DNA from: an uncultured Bacteroidales bacterium
Lineage (GTDB): Bacteria; Bacteroidota; Bacteroidia; Bacteroidales; P3
Length of the DNA: 64,000 bases
Assembly: GCA_900318275.1 (NCBI GenBank)
Contig: ONJY01000005.1
Location: 1-64,000 of the forward strand
Reading direction: 5' to 3'
Shown: piece after piece, positions 7,256-56,034 of the stretch
Numbering within the stretch: position 1 is the stretch's first letter
Layout: the number at the start of each line of letters is the position of its first letter
The notes under the pieces: generated by a model
Database searches by the model: none
Told to the model about the DNA's origin: nothing
What the model saw: only the letters and a program-made list of their open reading frames with translations
Made by a program: the position numbers and the translations under genes

Positions 7256-7356
7256 TTCCTCCCCGGCCCCTCCTCGGCCTTACTATCGCATCCGGTGCAT
7301 CGATGGCCGAAGCAAGGCCGAGGAGGGGCCGAAGGGGGCCGAAGGGGCTCCGAGCA
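7256..7356. repeat. GGCCGAAG palindromic element, copy A
   Basis: Intergenic element with an 18-bp perfect inverted repeat (cggcccctcctcggcctt at 7264-7281 and its complement at 7314-7331) around a 32-base loop. A GCCGAAGGGG motif is repeated after the right arm and the element ends GGGGCTCCG. The stretch from 7284 recurs nearly base for base at 55980, and the 3' end recurs at 22361, inside a gene. It fills most of the gap between the giant protein gene and the tRNA. No gene is supported in this gap. Confidence 0.75.
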
Positions 7357-18920: not shown

Positions 18921-20417
18921 TTATTCTTTGTTTATTTGGTCCACTATGACATTGCGTCCCACGAGGGCCTCAGCGGTGAGTATGGCGGTGAGCGAGGTGC
19001 CCACCATGCCGTGGAAGTTGACGTCCTGGCCAGTGAGTAGTAGGTTGCTGAGGCGCGTATGTGGCGACAGAGACGACTGCAGCGGGTTGTCGCTGCTGCG
19101 GTGTATGCCGTACATGGCGCCGCCTGGTGTGCCGTAGTAGTCGCGTATTGTCAGCGGTGTGCCGGCGTCGATGAAGGCTATGGCGTCTTTCAGCGGCACC
19201 TCGAAGCCGATGGGCTCTATCAGTCTAAGGGCCTGCTGTGTCATACGTTTTTTCCAACGGTAGTATTTTTCCGGTCTCTTGCCAGTGCGGCTATCCTCCC
19301 ACTGCCTCACGTATTCGTAGCTCATGGGGCAGATGGCAGTGATAGTGTTGGCGAAACCGGGGTTTTCTTTGTCCTCGCTGGGCAGAGCAAACACCATGTT
19401 GGGCCAGTCAGCCTCGTTGCAGCGGTCGGCCTGCCAGGGGTTCATTGTCGTCAGACCAGAGAAGTAGGCCTCTCGGTTATAACACAGGGTGCGAGGCTTG
19501 AGGCCGATGAACAGGGTCATTGCCGACATTGAGTATGGCACCGACTCTATGCGGTGGCGGAATGCCGGCGAGAAGGCGTCGGTTGGCATCAGTTCCAGCA
19601 GGCGTGCTATCGGCATGTCGTTTATGTAGTGGTCGGCTGTATAGCAGCCTGCCGTCGTGTACACTGCTGCCACGCTCCGCCCGTCTGTCTTTATGGCTGT
19701 CACCTCTTCGCCGCAGCGCACCTCGCCGCCACTGGCTTTGATGACATCCGCCAGCAGTTTGGCAAAGCCTACGCTTCCGTTGCGGAAGGTGTATGTGCCG
19801 TCGATGTGTGCGCAACTGATGAGGGCGTGCAGCAGTGCTGGGCTGTCTTCGCGCCCGCCGTAGAACAGTGATAGGTAGGCTACGGCTGTACGCAGCAAGG
19901 TGTTGCTTATGCTGTCGTCCATCAGATGTTTTGCTGTCAGACTTGTGTCGGGCAGCGTATAGTCGTCCGTCGTCGGCAGCAGGCTGTAGAGCGGCTCCTG
20001 TCGCGCTATGTCGTACAGCTTGTCGAGGTAGTCGCTGATCTCTTGGCTTATGTTGACGTTGGGCATCACAGGCTTAAGGCAGCGGCTCCATTTGTAGGTC
20101 CACGCCTTGCGACCGAATGGCAGTGTGACGCGCAGTCCGTTTTTGGCGTCCATAAGTGTGTCGTAGCACGGCTCTATCTCCAATCTGTTTTCTATGCCCA
20201 GATGACGGCAGATGCGCCGCACCTGTCCGTCGGTACCCATGCCACCGAACACATGCATGCCGGTGTCGAAAGTGTATGGCCCGCGGCGGAAACTCTGCAA
20301 TCCACCGCCTATGATGCGGTTCTTTTCCAGCACTGTGACGCGGTAACCCTCCTTTGCCAGCAGGGCTCCTGTCATCAGACCGCCCAGACCGCCGCCCATG
20401 ATGCACACCGTCTTCAT
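18921..20417 (-). CDS. Phytoene-desaturase-like FAD oxidoreductase
   Basis: 498 residues from the start at 20417, overlapping the exporter stop as ATGA. The N-terminal dinucleotide-binding motif GGGLGGLMTGALLAKEG leads a CrtI/CrtO-type flavoprotein fold. The C-terminus has the second FAD contact (LLLTGQDVNFHGMVGTSLTAILTAE). Relatives desaturate or isomerise carotenoids and other polyenes, and members occur in pigment clusters of Bacteroidota. It may oxidise the polyene chain or ring. No signal peptide; probably membrane-associated. Confidence 0.8.
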   Translation of the reverse strand: MKTVCIMGGGLGGLMTGALLAKEGYRVTVLEKNRIIGGGLQSFRRGPYTFDTGMHVFGGMGTDGQVRRICRHLGIENRLEIEPCYDTLMDAKNGLRVTLPFGRKAWTYKWSRCLKPVMPNVNISQEISDYLDKLYDIARQEPLYSLLPTTDDYTLPDTSLTAKHLMDDSISNTLLRTAVAYLSLFYGGREDSPALLHALISCAHIDGTYTFRNGSVGFAKLLADVIKASGGEVRCGEEVTAIKTDGRSVAAVYTTAGCYTADHYINDMPIARLLELMPTDAFSPAFRHRIESVPYSMSAMTLFIGLKPRTLCYNREAYFSGLTTMNPWQADRCNEADWPNMVFALPSEDKENPGFANTITAICPMSYEYVRQWEDSRTGKRPEKYYRWKKRMTQQALRLIEPIGFEVPLKDAIAFIDAGTPLTIRDYYGTPGGAMYGIHRSSDNPLQSSLSPHTRLSNLLLTGQDVNFHGMVGTSLTAILTAEALVGRNVIVDQINKE

Positions 20418-23400
20418 TCCAGCCCTCCTTTCCGTGGTCTTGTGTGCCACACCTCGCGCCCCTTGTATAGGTATTGGTAACGCTCCATGCGCTGCCTGTA
20501 CTCGGCTGTCTCTATGCGTAGACTCATGGCTTCGAGCTTGTCGATGAACATCTTGCGTGCCTCGTGGTTGTCGGTATGGCAACGCTGCCCCAAGGCCACA
20601 GTCACCGTTCCTTCGCGCAGCAGCGTCTCGTGACGTGGCCACACATTGTAGGCGCCGTGGATGTATACTGGCAGTATGGGCAGCCCCAGCTCGTCGGCAA
20701 GCATGAAGGCGCCTTTGTGGAAGCGGCCTACATTGCCGTCGTGAGTGCGTGTACCCTCGGGGAATATCATCACCGAATAGCCTCGTGCCACCAAGTCTTT
20801 CAGCTTGGGCATCAGCTTGTCGTATCCAGCCTCGGCGGGCAGATATTCGGCGTAGCGTATTATGTGGGCGTATATCGGGTTGCGCCACACCCAGTTCTTG
20901 GTCATGATGACGAGTTTCGGCGTCAGCGCCAGCATGCACAGCAGGTCGAGGTGCGACGCATGGTTGGCCACTATCACCGCCGGCTTGCTGAAATCTTCGC
21001 CGTTCGGGTTCTCGGTCTTGAAGTCCACACGCGGCATCAGCCGTGCGCCGAGGCGCGCCACACCGCAGATGAAGCAGTGGAAGGCGTCGCGCTTGCGGTT
21101 ACGCGGTGCAGGTGTGATGAATGACAGCAGTGTCACCGGTGTGGCCACGAGCAGTGCAAAGAGGGCGAAGACCAGCAGCGGCACCATGGTGATGACGATG
21201 CGGCCGAGGGTTATGGGCACCTCGCGCTTCACGCCGCGCCGCATGGTGAGCCAGCGGAACACCATCGGCGGCACCACACAGGCCATTAGCACCACGCAGC
21301 CCATGCCTATCATGGCCACCTCGGCCAGGCTTCGCATGGCGGGGTGGCGCGCCACTATCAGGGTGCCGATGCCTACGAACATCAGTGCGGCGGATATTAT
21401 CACGCTGCGGCGGTATTCTTTCAGGCGCCGCCGTCCTGTGGCGTTCTCGTAGAGCAGTCCCTCGGTGATGAATATCGTGTAGTCGTCGCCCTGACCGAAG
21501 ATAAATGTGGCCAGTATGATGTTGACAATGTTGAACTTGATGCCCGTCAAGGCCATGATGCCGAGTATCCACAGCCACCCCATGGCCATGGGCAGGAAGG
21601 CAAGCACCGCCAGCTCGAAGCGCCCGAGGGCGAGCCACAGGAAGGCGAAGACCACGAAGGAACATACATAGAGTATGTAGTTGAAGTCGGCGTTGAGGGC
21701 ACCCACCAGGCCGCTGCCTACGTCGCTCTGTGTGAAGGCATAGGTGTGAGCTACATCGGGGACGGTAGTCTCTCCGTGTACGAAGTTGACGATGCTTACA
21801 CCGGTGTCAGACGTCAGTATGTAGTTGGTTGCCAGCTGTCCCAACGCACCGTCGAGAGTGCAGGGTGCAGGGGTGTAGGTGGCCTCAATGCGGTCGGTAA
21901 AGGGGCGGAAGGCCTCGTCGGCAAAGCCGGCACGGCGTGCCTCGCGGCGCACCTCGTCGGCTAGTGAAGGGTGCTTGGCCAATAGGCTATGCCACTGAGT
22001 TAAAGCCTTTTCCTGCCGTGCCAGCGACGGCATGAGTGACGCTACACCGTCGAGGCCGAGCGAGTCGTTGCGCTGCAGGGCCTCCTCGAGAGTTGCGCCT
22101 TCGGCCACCACGTATGTGAGACCGACCTCGTCGACGCTTGCTGCCAGCAGGTCTAGGTCAGCCAGCTGCTGGGCGGTCATGTAGTTGATATTGTGCAAGT
22201 CGGCGTCGAATTCTACGAGGGTGCTGAAGTATCCGAGGACGACGGTTGCCAGCATCATCACCCAGAATGCCACGGACCCCCAACGGCCCCTCTTCGGCAT
22301 CCCAACGGCCTCCGGACGGCCTTCCACTGAAGAAATGCCGAAGGGGGGCCGAAGGGGGGCCGAAGGGGCTCCGTCTGAAGGCTGGTTTTGATGTAATTTT
22401 GTAGTGTGTTTGTTTTCAGTGCGTTGGCTTTTTTTGCGGCCGGCCTTGGCCCAGAGGGGCAGAAAGACGAGGGTGAAGCCTATGGTGCCGACGAGCATTA
22501 GTGAGCCGAAGAGACCCAGGTCGCGCATGGCTTCGGCTTTGACGAAGACGAGGCAAGCGAAGGCGGCGACGGTGGTGATGTTGCCTGTGACTAACGGTTC
22601 GGTCATCTCGCGCAGGGTCTCGCGGCGGTCGGGGTGGTTCTTCAGATGTTCGAGGTAGTGGAGCGGGTAATTGACGGCAATACCTACGAGCACCGAGCCG
22701 ATGCCTACGACGATGATGGAAATCTCTGATTTGAAGATGGCTATCACCGCAAGGGCGAAGAGCCATCCAGCGGCTACCGAGAAGCCCATCCACAGTATGT
22801 TGCGTTTGCGTCCCATGGTGCGCCACAGGATGATGGCTATGAGCACCACGGCGAGGGCTATGGCCAGTAGGCTGTCGTGCTTTATCTGCGAGGCGTTGGT
22901 GACGGCGATGAGTGGCGCGCCGACGGCGGTGATGCCTACTTTGGGGCTCTGCACGCTGTCGATAGCTTCGTCTATTGCTTTGGCTACGAGACTGTTGTTG
23001 CGGGTGTCGCTGGCAGCGTAGGAGCTGGTGATGAAGGCGAAGCCGTTGCCGTCATCGTCGAAGATGTAGTCGTCGACCATGCGGTAGCGGCTGCTTGGGC
23101 TGAGGGCCTGCAGACGTTGCAAGGCGGGGGAGAAGAGGCCGAGTGGGTCGGCGGCAATCATGTCGGTGGCCATAGGTGGCAGGGGCATGGCGAGGGTCTG
23201 TCGGGCCGAGGCCATGCTGCGTGCAATATAGGTGGGGTCGGCCAGCAGGGAGTCTATGCGTCGGTAGTCGGCGGCGGTGAGGTATAGCGGGATGTTGCTG
23301 TTCACTAGGCTGATTGCCTGCATGACGTCGCTACCGTCTGCGCGTGCCTGTACTGGCAAGGCGGTGAAGGCTTCGGCAAAGGCGTCGATAGCGTCCATGA

Positions 23401-23650
23401 CGTCGTCGTCGGTGGCCTCTTCCGCCGGGCGGAAGATGACGGTGATCTGGCCTTGGTCGCCGAGGCTGTTGTATATGTCGGCCTGTTTGGCGTTCTCGGC
23501 GGTGCGTGGCAGGAAGTCGGCTATGTTCTCCTGGTAGTGCAGCTGCAAGGCAAGGAGTGCTCCCGCGGCAAGCAGCACGACGAGTAGTACCACGGCGAAG
23601 GGGCGGTGGCTGGCAAGGTAGTCGTGCAGGCGTAGCAGGAGGCGGGACAT
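20414..23650 (-). CDS. RND/MMPL-type exporter fused to a PlsC acyltransferase
   Basis: 1078 residues. Residues 1 to about 800 form an MMPL-type RND transporter: TM1 (AVVLLVVLLAAGALLAL), a periplasmic loop, a TM2-6 bundle, a cytoplasmic loop, TM7, a second periplasmic loop and TM8-12 (including IFGQGDDYTIF). The C-terminal 200 residues are a PlsC domain with NHASHLD near 896 and FPEGTR near 962. The natural substrate would be the lipid-linked pigment, moved to the outer layers and perhaps acylated. The loop between TM6 and TM7 (about residues 426-460) is encoded by a palindromic repeat element that other copies show as intergenic DNA. Confidence 0.85.
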   Translation of the reverse strand: MSRLLLRLHDYLASHRPFAVVLLVVLLAAGALLALQLHYQENIADFLPRTAENAKQADIYNSLGDQGQITVIFRPAEEATDDDVMDAIDAFAEAFTALPVQARADGSDVMQAISLVNSNIPLYLTAADYRRIDSLLADPTYIARSMASARQTLAMPLPPMATDMIAADPLGLFSPALQRLQALSPSSRYRMVDDYIFDDDGNGFAFITSSYAASDTRNNSLVAKAIDEAIDSVQSPKVGITAVGAPLIAVTNASQIKHDSLLAIALAVVLIAIILWRTMGRKRNILWMGFSVAAGWLFALAVIAIFKSEISIIVVGIGSVLVGIAVNYPLHYLEHLKNHPDRRETLREMTEPLVTGNITTVAAFACLVFVKAEAMRDLGLFGSLMLVGTIGFTLVFLPLWAKAGRKKSQRTENKHTTKLHQNQPSDGAPSAPLRPPFGISSVEGRPEAVGMPKRGRWGSVAFWVMMLATVVLGYFSTLVEFDADLHNINYMTAQQLADLDLLAASVDEVGLTYVVAEGATLEEALQRNDSLGLDGVASLMPSLARQEKALTQWHSLLAKHPSLADEVRREARRAGFADEAFRPFTDRIEATYTPAPCTLDGALGQLATNYILTSDTGVSIVNFVHGETTVPDVAHTYAFTQSDVGSGLVGALNADFNYILYVCSFVVFAFLWLALGRFELAVLAFLPMAMGWLWILGIMALTGIKFNIVNIILATFIFGQGDDYTIFITEGLLYENATGRRRLKEYRRSVIISAALMFVGIGTLIVARHPAMRSLAEVAMIGMGCVVLMACVVPPMVFRWLTMRRGVKREVPITLGRIVITMVPLLVFALFALLVATPVTLLSFITPAPRNRKRDAFHCFICGVARLGARLMPRVDFKTENPNGEDFSKPAVIVANHASHLDLLCMLALTPKLVIMTKNWVWRNPIYAHIIRYAEYLPAEAGYDKLMPKLKDLVARGYSVMIFPEGTRTHDGNVGRFHKGAFMLADELGLPILPVYIHGAYNVWPRHETLLREGTVTVALGQRCHTDNHEARKMFIDKLEAMSLRIETAEYRQRMERYQYLYKGREVWHTRPRKGGLE
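22272..22374. repeat. GGCCGAAG palindromic element, copy inside the exporter gene
   Basis: Arms cggcccctcttcggcat (22284-22300) and atgccgaaggggggccg (22335-22351) pair with one mismatch. The right side repeats GCCGAAGGGGG and ends GGGGCTCCG like copy A. The centre holds ACTGAAGAAAT, shared with the copies at 36755 and 49621. It is in frame and translated (Gly-Ala-Pro-Ser-Ala-Pro and following) in the loop between TM6 and TM7 of the exporter. Confidence 0.8.
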
Positions 23651-49585: not shown

Positions 49586-49620
49586 AAATCTTTTGTCCGG
49601 AGGCGCAATCGGTATGGTGC

Positions 49621-49725
49621 CCCTACGGACCCGGTACGGCATTTCTTCAGTATAGCACAGAAGAACTACTGAAGGACGATGGTCGAACGGCCGTACCAAC
49701 TCCCTGTCGGAGAGGTGGGGAAGAG
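49621..49725. repeat. Palindromic element, copy E
   Basis: GGTACGGC (49633-49640) and GCCGTACC (49690-49697) enclose ATTTCTTCAGTA (49641-49652) and TACTGAAGGACGATGGTCGAA. These are the core words ACTGAAGAAAT and GGTCGAA of the copies at 36755 and 22272. It fills the gap between kce and the unknown exported protein gene. Confidence 0.6.
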
Positions 49726-55939: not shown

Positions 55940-56034
55940 GACCGCCTTCGCACCCCCTGCGGTTTTTCTACGGCCGTGGTATCGCATCCGGGGCATCGAC
56001 GGCCGAAGGAAGGCCGAGGAGGGGCCGAATGGGT
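55940..56034. repeat. GGCCGAAG palindromic element, copy D
   Basis: From 55980, tatcgcatccgg, then GGCCGAAGG, AAGGCCGAGGAGGGGCCGAA: about 50 bases nearly identical to copy A from 7284. The left arm is degraded (cccctgcggtttttctacggccg), so the full palindrome is lost. It occupies the gap between the tig promoter and the DUF4249-like gene. Confidence 0.7.

Follow-up and report, generated by a model that had tools for sequence, protein, structure and literature searches.

A hairpin repeat, intergenic elsewhere, carried in frame within an exporter gene of three related Bacteroidales

Results

The exporter gene and its repeat-bearing loop

The stretch of DNA analysed here (the window; 64,000 nucleotides from the genome of an uncultured Bacteroidales bacterium, positions 1 to 64,000 of contig ONJY01000005.1) contains on its reverse strand a reading frame of 1078 codons without a stop, whose product matches the Pfam families MMPL (E 6.8e-08) and Acyltransferase (E 1.7e-21). 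Its neighbours in the gene row match FAD oxidoreductase, GT2, FabA-like, LolA and ketosynthase families, and we take the row to resemble an aryl-polyene-type cluster. Within this exporter gene lies a copy of a hairpin repeat, and relatives of the repeat occur in intergenic DNA of the same window:

20414..23650, minus strand: exporter gene, an MMPL/RND protein with a C-terminal acyltransferase domain, 1078 aa
22272..22376, minus strand: the hairpin repeat in frame, encoding residues 426-459 (from family matches, fold and pLDDT)
22335..22376, minus strand: left arm as read along the gene, built of roughly 11-nt units, CGGAGCCCCTT CGGCCCCCCTT CGG... (from copies aligned on the tip)
22322..22334, minus strand: tip of the hairpin, TTCTTCAGTGGAA, which marks family A (from pattern matches and copies aligned on the tip)
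22272..22321, minus strand: right arm (gene sense), 92% identical to the exporter copy of genome RUG061 (from copy comparison)
7256..7352, no strand assigned: intergenic relative that shares the arm units and has another tip, upstream of a tRNA gene
55940..56033, no strand assigned: intergenic relative that shares the arm units and has another tip
49620..49651, no strand assigned: intergenic relative L151, a partial match of 84% over 32 bases

The first-pass annotation of this DNA had described a palindrome translated in frame within the exporter, and this is borne out: the frame is open throughout its 1078 codons, and positions 22272-22376 encode residues 426-459. In gene sense, the repeat consists of CGGAGCCCCTT-type units, then the tip TTCTTCAGTGGAA, then a largely complementary arm, and when extended by 10 bases at either end (22262-22386) it folds into a single long hairpin (-75.4 kcal/mol, z -4.84) whose stability was reached by none of 200 shuffles. 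The same annotation had likened the repeat to the palindromes at 7256 and 55940. That likeness holds for the arm units, which the three copies have in common (89% identity over 63 and over 45 bases), and fails at the tip, which is GCATCCGG in both intergenic copies versus TTCTTCAGTGGAA in the exporter. At Rfam gathering scores, the repeat has no match, and the window as a whole has just one, a tRNA.

An AlphaFold2 model of the exporter (36 sequences, mean pLDDT 80, pTM 0.64) places helices at residues 373-395 and 454-478 and gives residues 406-454, between them, a pLDDT below 50. The helices fit the position between TM6 and TM7 that had been proposed for the repeat, and the loop that bears it is predicted to be disordered. 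By the general topology of RND proteins, this loop is on the cytoplasmic side. In three exporters without the insert (L158, L159 and L162), the loop contains short tandem repeats of GAAGAGTC, GATTCA and GGAGTT types, and it therefore seems to gather repeats of several kinds.

A hairpin family abundant in three genomes

Family A is abundant in three of the 99 genomes of the genus that were examined. The element is matched in the window's own genome (G000), in RUG061 (G022), in RGIG6226 (G108) and, by a single weak match, in RUG12227 (G088). A 261-base query around the exporter copy has at least 59 matches in the window's own genome, where 40 of 81 similarity candidates were scored (40 of 126 in RUG061 and 9 of 132 in RGIG6226). 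A pattern of the 18-base core allowing up to two mismatches, which adds core-bearing copies only, yielded 32 matches in the window's genome, 49 in RUG061 and 47 in RGIG6226 (128 in total). Thirteen other genomes gave 0 or 1 match apiece, and so did every genome when the pattern was reversed as a control. The plasmid and phage records searched for the element contained no match.

When aligned on the tip, copies of family A are about 100-105 bp long. Many related elements of the window's genome (loci L020, L023, L053 and L145-L152) have extended tips of TTCTTCAGTAGT-like units, so that tips and arms seem to be modular in combination. Loci L098, L118, L120, L127, L132 and L140 have in common a further stretch like CCCTTGCTGGCACTGGGTTTGT upstream of the left arm, and the full repeat unit may for this reason exceed 105 bases. 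The only family-A tip found in RUG12227 (L092) occupies the same site as copy L125 of RUG061 and has different arms.

Placement of the copies

Among the copies examined, family A is nearly absent from genes other than the exporter. Placement was determined for 115 copies consisting of the core and its flanks (24 in the window's genome, 46 in RUG061 and 45 in RGIG6226; core-less copies are left out of this set): 108 are intergenic, 4 could not be placed, and 3 lie inside coding sequence, these being the exporter orthologues of the three genomes. Because 88.7% of the window is called coding, about 102 of the 115 would be expected within genes under random insertion that is tolerated. The intergenic copies lie between tandem (56), divergent (44) and convergent (8) genes, and those beside gene ends follow closely after stop codons (median distances by genome: 19, 32 and 62 bases). 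In a set of 151 loci, 140 are intergenic, 8 overlap a gene end within a nominal 100 bases, and 3 are inside a gene. The frame used in the exporter is free of stops in 69 of the 115 copies, the three exporter copies included, and at least one of the six frames is open in 106.

Because genes were called by a home-made codon-usage script trained on 23 reading frames of the window, short genes can go uncalled. A reading-frame check of the 115 copies found 3 inside a frame, 105 touching no called frame and 7 (L002, L093, L120, L124, L138, L244 and L263) that could be read through at a protein's N-terminus if translation started upstream; the nominal element also contains the stop codons of three called genes. 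L093, L263 and L012 represent one shared site; there, and at L120, L124, L138, L244 and L002, the open frame of a neighbouring gene runs upstream through the hairpin, which would encode an N-terminal extension if the start lay there. A translated search of RUG061 detected peptides resembling the element in open frames, outside called genes, that span as many as 744 codons from stop to stop. These peptides and the seven possible read-throughs mean that the claim of a single genic site is not airtight; no genic copy besides the exporter's was found among the family-A and sister-family copies examined. Further copies within genes had been suggested as something to look for in the window's own genome, and among the copies examined there none was found beyond the exporter's, apart from a possible N-terminal read-through at L002.

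Distribution of the insert among exporter orthologues

We compared the loop across 79 loci of exporter relatives, 78 of which cover it. The loop is 96 residues long in the window, 96 in RUG061 and 100 in RGIG6226, as against 61-82 in the other 76 loci; the insert is thus absent from most orthologues, in support of the in-frame insertion that the first-pass annotation had proposed. Its suggestion of a recent insertion does not stand, because three species carry the insert, with 84-90% identity between their exporters and that of the window. A database search with residues 385-500 matched 141 proteins, of which 120 were listed, and the loop was measured in 118 of 121 (query included): the family-A insert is present in the query and in at least nine database proteins among the matches listed, with loops of 95-100 residues. 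Loop lengths of 110 for P0046 and P0058 were rejected as an anchor artefact; read directly, these loops are like the short ones.

In a tree built without the loop, the three carrier genomes form one clade (100/100). In a tree of 39 rows, P0016 and P0021, two proteins that lack the insert, nest among carriers, and grouping every carrier in a single clade is rejected (p-AU 9.5e-06); their placement would be accounted for by loss, recombination or chimeric contigs.

A sister family in the same loop

Among the 76 shorter loops, those of L156, L160 and L209 (73 residues each) contain a hairpin of another family. In RUG12227, this sister family has arm units like CTCCGTACCCG, the tip GTTTAACGG and at least 45 matches (40 of 136 candidates scored). 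Thirty of its copies were examined there: 28 are intergenic, one is unplaced, and the sole genic copy (L335:1500-1616) lies in the same exporter, in the same loop and in frame. Used as a query, this genic copy has at least 50 matches in RUG649 (G018; 40 of 127 candidates scored), at least 46 in RUG12227 (40 of 159 scored), 5 in RUG061 and 55 in RGIG6226, where those listed are short and centred around the tip; it has no match in G000, G010, G012, G013, G001 or G002. Nine copies in RUG649 were examined, of which 4 are intergenic and 5, near contig ends, are unplaced. By eye, sister-type loops occur in at least six database proteins among those listed, and P0011 combines the family-A tip peptide with other flanks. 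Folding z-scores of the loops are -6.5 (L156), -4.2 (L160) and -3.4 (L209); because the carrier RGIG6226 scores -1.6 while two non-carriers score -3.1 (L162) and -2.6 (L158), folding alone is no test for carriers.

The sister family, in a neighbouring lineage, came to share this loop either through one ancestral insertion with later sequence replacement, or through a second insertion. Two separate events, in which family A and the sister family entered the same permissive loop independently, are a serious possibility, though one that we would not favour. The arms and tips of the two families differ, the loop also houses the short tandem repeats noted above, and a first tree groups four loci without the insert (L155, L157, L158 and L159) with the family-A carriers (88/83). 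There is also a precedent, in that two Xanthomonas species are reported to have different REPs at about the same site in recB (PMC3733652). Against independent arrivals, holding the six genome carriers of either family together as one clade in a smaller set is not rejected (p-AU 0.327), a pattern of 11-nt units is common to both sets of arms (by eye), and the insert peptides are similar (GAPTEPLRSP versus GASPTPLRTP). Moreover, the one family-A copy of RUG12227 shares its site with a RUG061 copy and has different arms.

Weak constraint on the insert

In the three pairwise comparisons of carriers, the insert has dS of 0.18, 0.17 and 0.15 and dN of 0.13, 0.33 and 0.17, compared with dS of 0.38, 0.47 and 0.33 and dN of 0.05, 0.09 and 0.07 elsewhere in the gene. 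For the 30 residues that precede the insert, dS is 0.56, 1.05 and 0.85 and dN is 0.22, 0.73 and 0.77. The resulting dN/dS ratios are 0.70-1.93 for the insert, 0.39-0.91 for the preceding 30 residues and 0.13-0.22 for the rest of the gene. Because the preceding residues also evolve fast, weak constraint is a property of the whole loop; and since the insert's ratio so exceeds that of the rest of the gene, probably only its open frame is maintained.

If the hairpin were instead kept in the exporter for a job at the DNA or RNA level, such as processing or stability of mRNA within the operon, its translation would be incidental. The reduced dS of the insert relative to the rest of the gene would fit such a role, as would the very stable fold of the window's copy and the position of intergenic copies close after stop codons, which resembles that of REPs (PMC3733652). 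The low dS is weak evidence because it derives from only 28-29 synonymous sites per pair, and exchange between copies would likewise reduce it; furthermore, the hairpin is less clear in RGIG6226, where z falls to -1.6. We consider such a role unlikely.

Exchange between copies

Many copies occupy sites that are shared between genomes: 19 of 53 loci in the window's genome have partners in both RUG061 and RGIG6226. Across 29 site pairs of RUG061 and RGIG6226, left arms have a mean identity of 0.881, close to the level among copies of a single genome (0.862 and 0.891) and slightly above that of unmatched copies between these two genomes (0.843). Right arms average 0.736, where unmatched copies average 0.668, and six of the 29 pairs have right-arm identities of at least 0.92. 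At one pair (L120/L258), the flanks and right arm agree, and the left arm is of the RGIG6226 type. Left-arm profiles assigned 95 of 115 copies to the genome from which they came. Copies at shared intergenic sites thus often have genome-specific arms, which suggests exchange between copies, and the arm identities together with the profile assignments make homogenisation of the intergenic family likely.

Left-arm profiles assign only one of the three exporter copies to its own genome (that of the window's genome fits RUG061 best, and that of RUG061 fits RGIG6226 best), yet at columns -7, -2 and -1, which were picked post hoc, the exporter copies have the majority base of their own genome in 9 of 9 cells. 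Overwriting of the exporter copy by the genome's own repeats is therefore suggestive only. A bolder reading, which we put forward tentatively and think rather doubtful, is that this single exporter loop is the only coding refuge of a hairpin superfamily (two sister families of neighbouring lineages, both in frame), and that its coding copy would be repeatedly overwritten by the current version of the repeat, in concerted evolution with the intergenic copies. If this is true, part of a membrane protein's amino-acid sequence is continually being rewritten by selfish DNA from between genes.

Discussion

The reading that we consider quite probable is that a hairpin of about 105 bases, intergenic elsewhere, was inserted, likely once, in an ancestor of three related Bacteroidales; that its in-frame position in the exporter would lengthen a loop predicted to be disordered by about 34 residues; and that it has been carried as tolerated, near-neutral sequence. 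The repeat would have been mobilised or copied into a permissive loop of the ancestral exporter, and since this loop accepts extra length and the frame used is free of stops in many copies, the insertion was probably tolerated. Thereafter the insert would have evolved as near-neutral protein sequence in which the open frame alone was probably maintained, and ongoing exchange between repeat copies likely renews the arms of the repeats. The insert in the exporter is therefore likely to be a tolerated insertion of selfish DNA.

We infer that the hairpin family is mobile; neither a transposase nor a clean empty site could be tied to it. A search of 12 genomes for PF01797 (RAYT) gave one match each in RUG061, RGIG6226 and RUG12227 and none in the window's genome, which is 88.6% complete. 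The hairpins directly flanking RAYT in RUG061 and RUG12227 belong to other types. In RUG12227, the RAYT gene has a sister-family copy some 1 kb away, and in RGIG6226 a family-A copy lies about 1.1 kb from it, beyond another reading frame; with some 47-132 copies in 2.3 Mb, such proximities are not telling. No RAYT gene is flanked by the family, and RAYT was not adopted as the mobiliser. RAYT loci L291, L292, L293 and L301 (in RUG061, RGIG6226 and G010) have short hairpins of their own, such as CGACCCCTACGGGGTCG in RUG061, that differ between genomes. The one usable comparison of a filled with an unfilled site, made for an empty site or target-site duplication, showed no clean junction: the window's genome has what resembles a deletion remnant, and RUG061 has another element.

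Two further explanations can be dealt with briefly. That the intergenic repeats derive from exporter coding sequence, rather than the reverse, might be suspected because all three carriers have the exporter copy, and is very improbable given that most orthologues outside the carriers have no insert, that the copies are hairpins with tip variants of their own, and that a sister family has the same architecture. An artefact of repeat-rich metagenome assemblies is hardly credible, despite the named relatives being metagenome-assembled or uncultured genomes, because the same in-frame insert recurs in separately assembled genomes and in at least nine further database proteins.

The significance of these findings is that repeats becoming protein, as known from other bacteria, gain an example from Bacteroidales for which relatives of differing depth are available, and that hairpin families having 11-nt arm units and genome-specific arms are described. 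Because carriers, non-carriers and a sister family all occur in one loop, mere tolerance, loss, and rewriting of coding sequence by intergenic copies become testable. In the open-licence literature searched, neither such 11-nt-unit hairpins nor a Bacteroidales coding copy were found described. BrickBuilt elements are made of short repeated units. These MITEs of Porphyromonas gingivalis (PMC5771137) and the PINSR repeats of Prevotella intermedia (PMC4755523) are likewise dispersed, non-coding repeats of Bacteroidales; compared by description, no in-frame coding copy is reported for either in the parts of those two sources available to us.

The first-pass annotation held that protein-coding palindromes are known mainly from Rickettsia, a view that the literature contradicts: cases have been published for Wolbachia, enterobacteria, Neisseria and REPs (PMC2229807, PMC3733652, PMC10969869). 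Because such inserts are on record from Rickettsia, Wolbachia, enterobacteria and REP-rich genomes, the in-frame palindromic insert is of a kind already known. The exporter insert has the general traits of protein-coding palindromic repeats, namely a dispersed, mostly intergenic family with an in-frame copy in a conserved gene that is absent from orthologues in genomes without the family.

The comparisons that follow are by description. Rickettsial palindromic elements (RPEs) are long stem-loops of 105-146 bp, located between genes and in frame inside them, and an RPE-bearing guanylate kinase is active (PMC2229807, PMC10969869). They have been described in 19 reading frames by one source (PMC2229807) and as 44 insertions in genes of R. 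conorii by another (PMC10969869). The Bacteroidales hairpins resemble RPEs in being long and in occurring both intergenically and in frame. They differ in that RPEs occupy many genes, whereas insertion into many different genes was not found here: 3 of 115 copies are in coding sequence, all in one orthologous gene, with the seven possible N-terminal read-throughs besides. ERIC, YPAL and the 107-bp Correia MITEs are, like the exporter insert, small repeats that form hairpins and have open frames joined to those of genes (PMC2229807). Most MITEs of this type have terminal inverted repeats and target-site duplications; for family A, the one site comparison gave no clean junction. REPs with a GTAG or CGTC foot are 20-40 bp long, the GTAG ones often beside a RAYT gene, and CGTC repeats also occur in Bacteroidetes (PMC3733652). 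Unlike them, the present hairpins are about 105 bp long, have arms of 11-nt units and have no linked RAYT that we could find. In placement, however, the two are alike: GTAG and CGTC REPs are mostly intergenic and close to 3' ends, some lie entirely inside reading frames, and some species have only a single REP-modified reading frame (PMC3733652).
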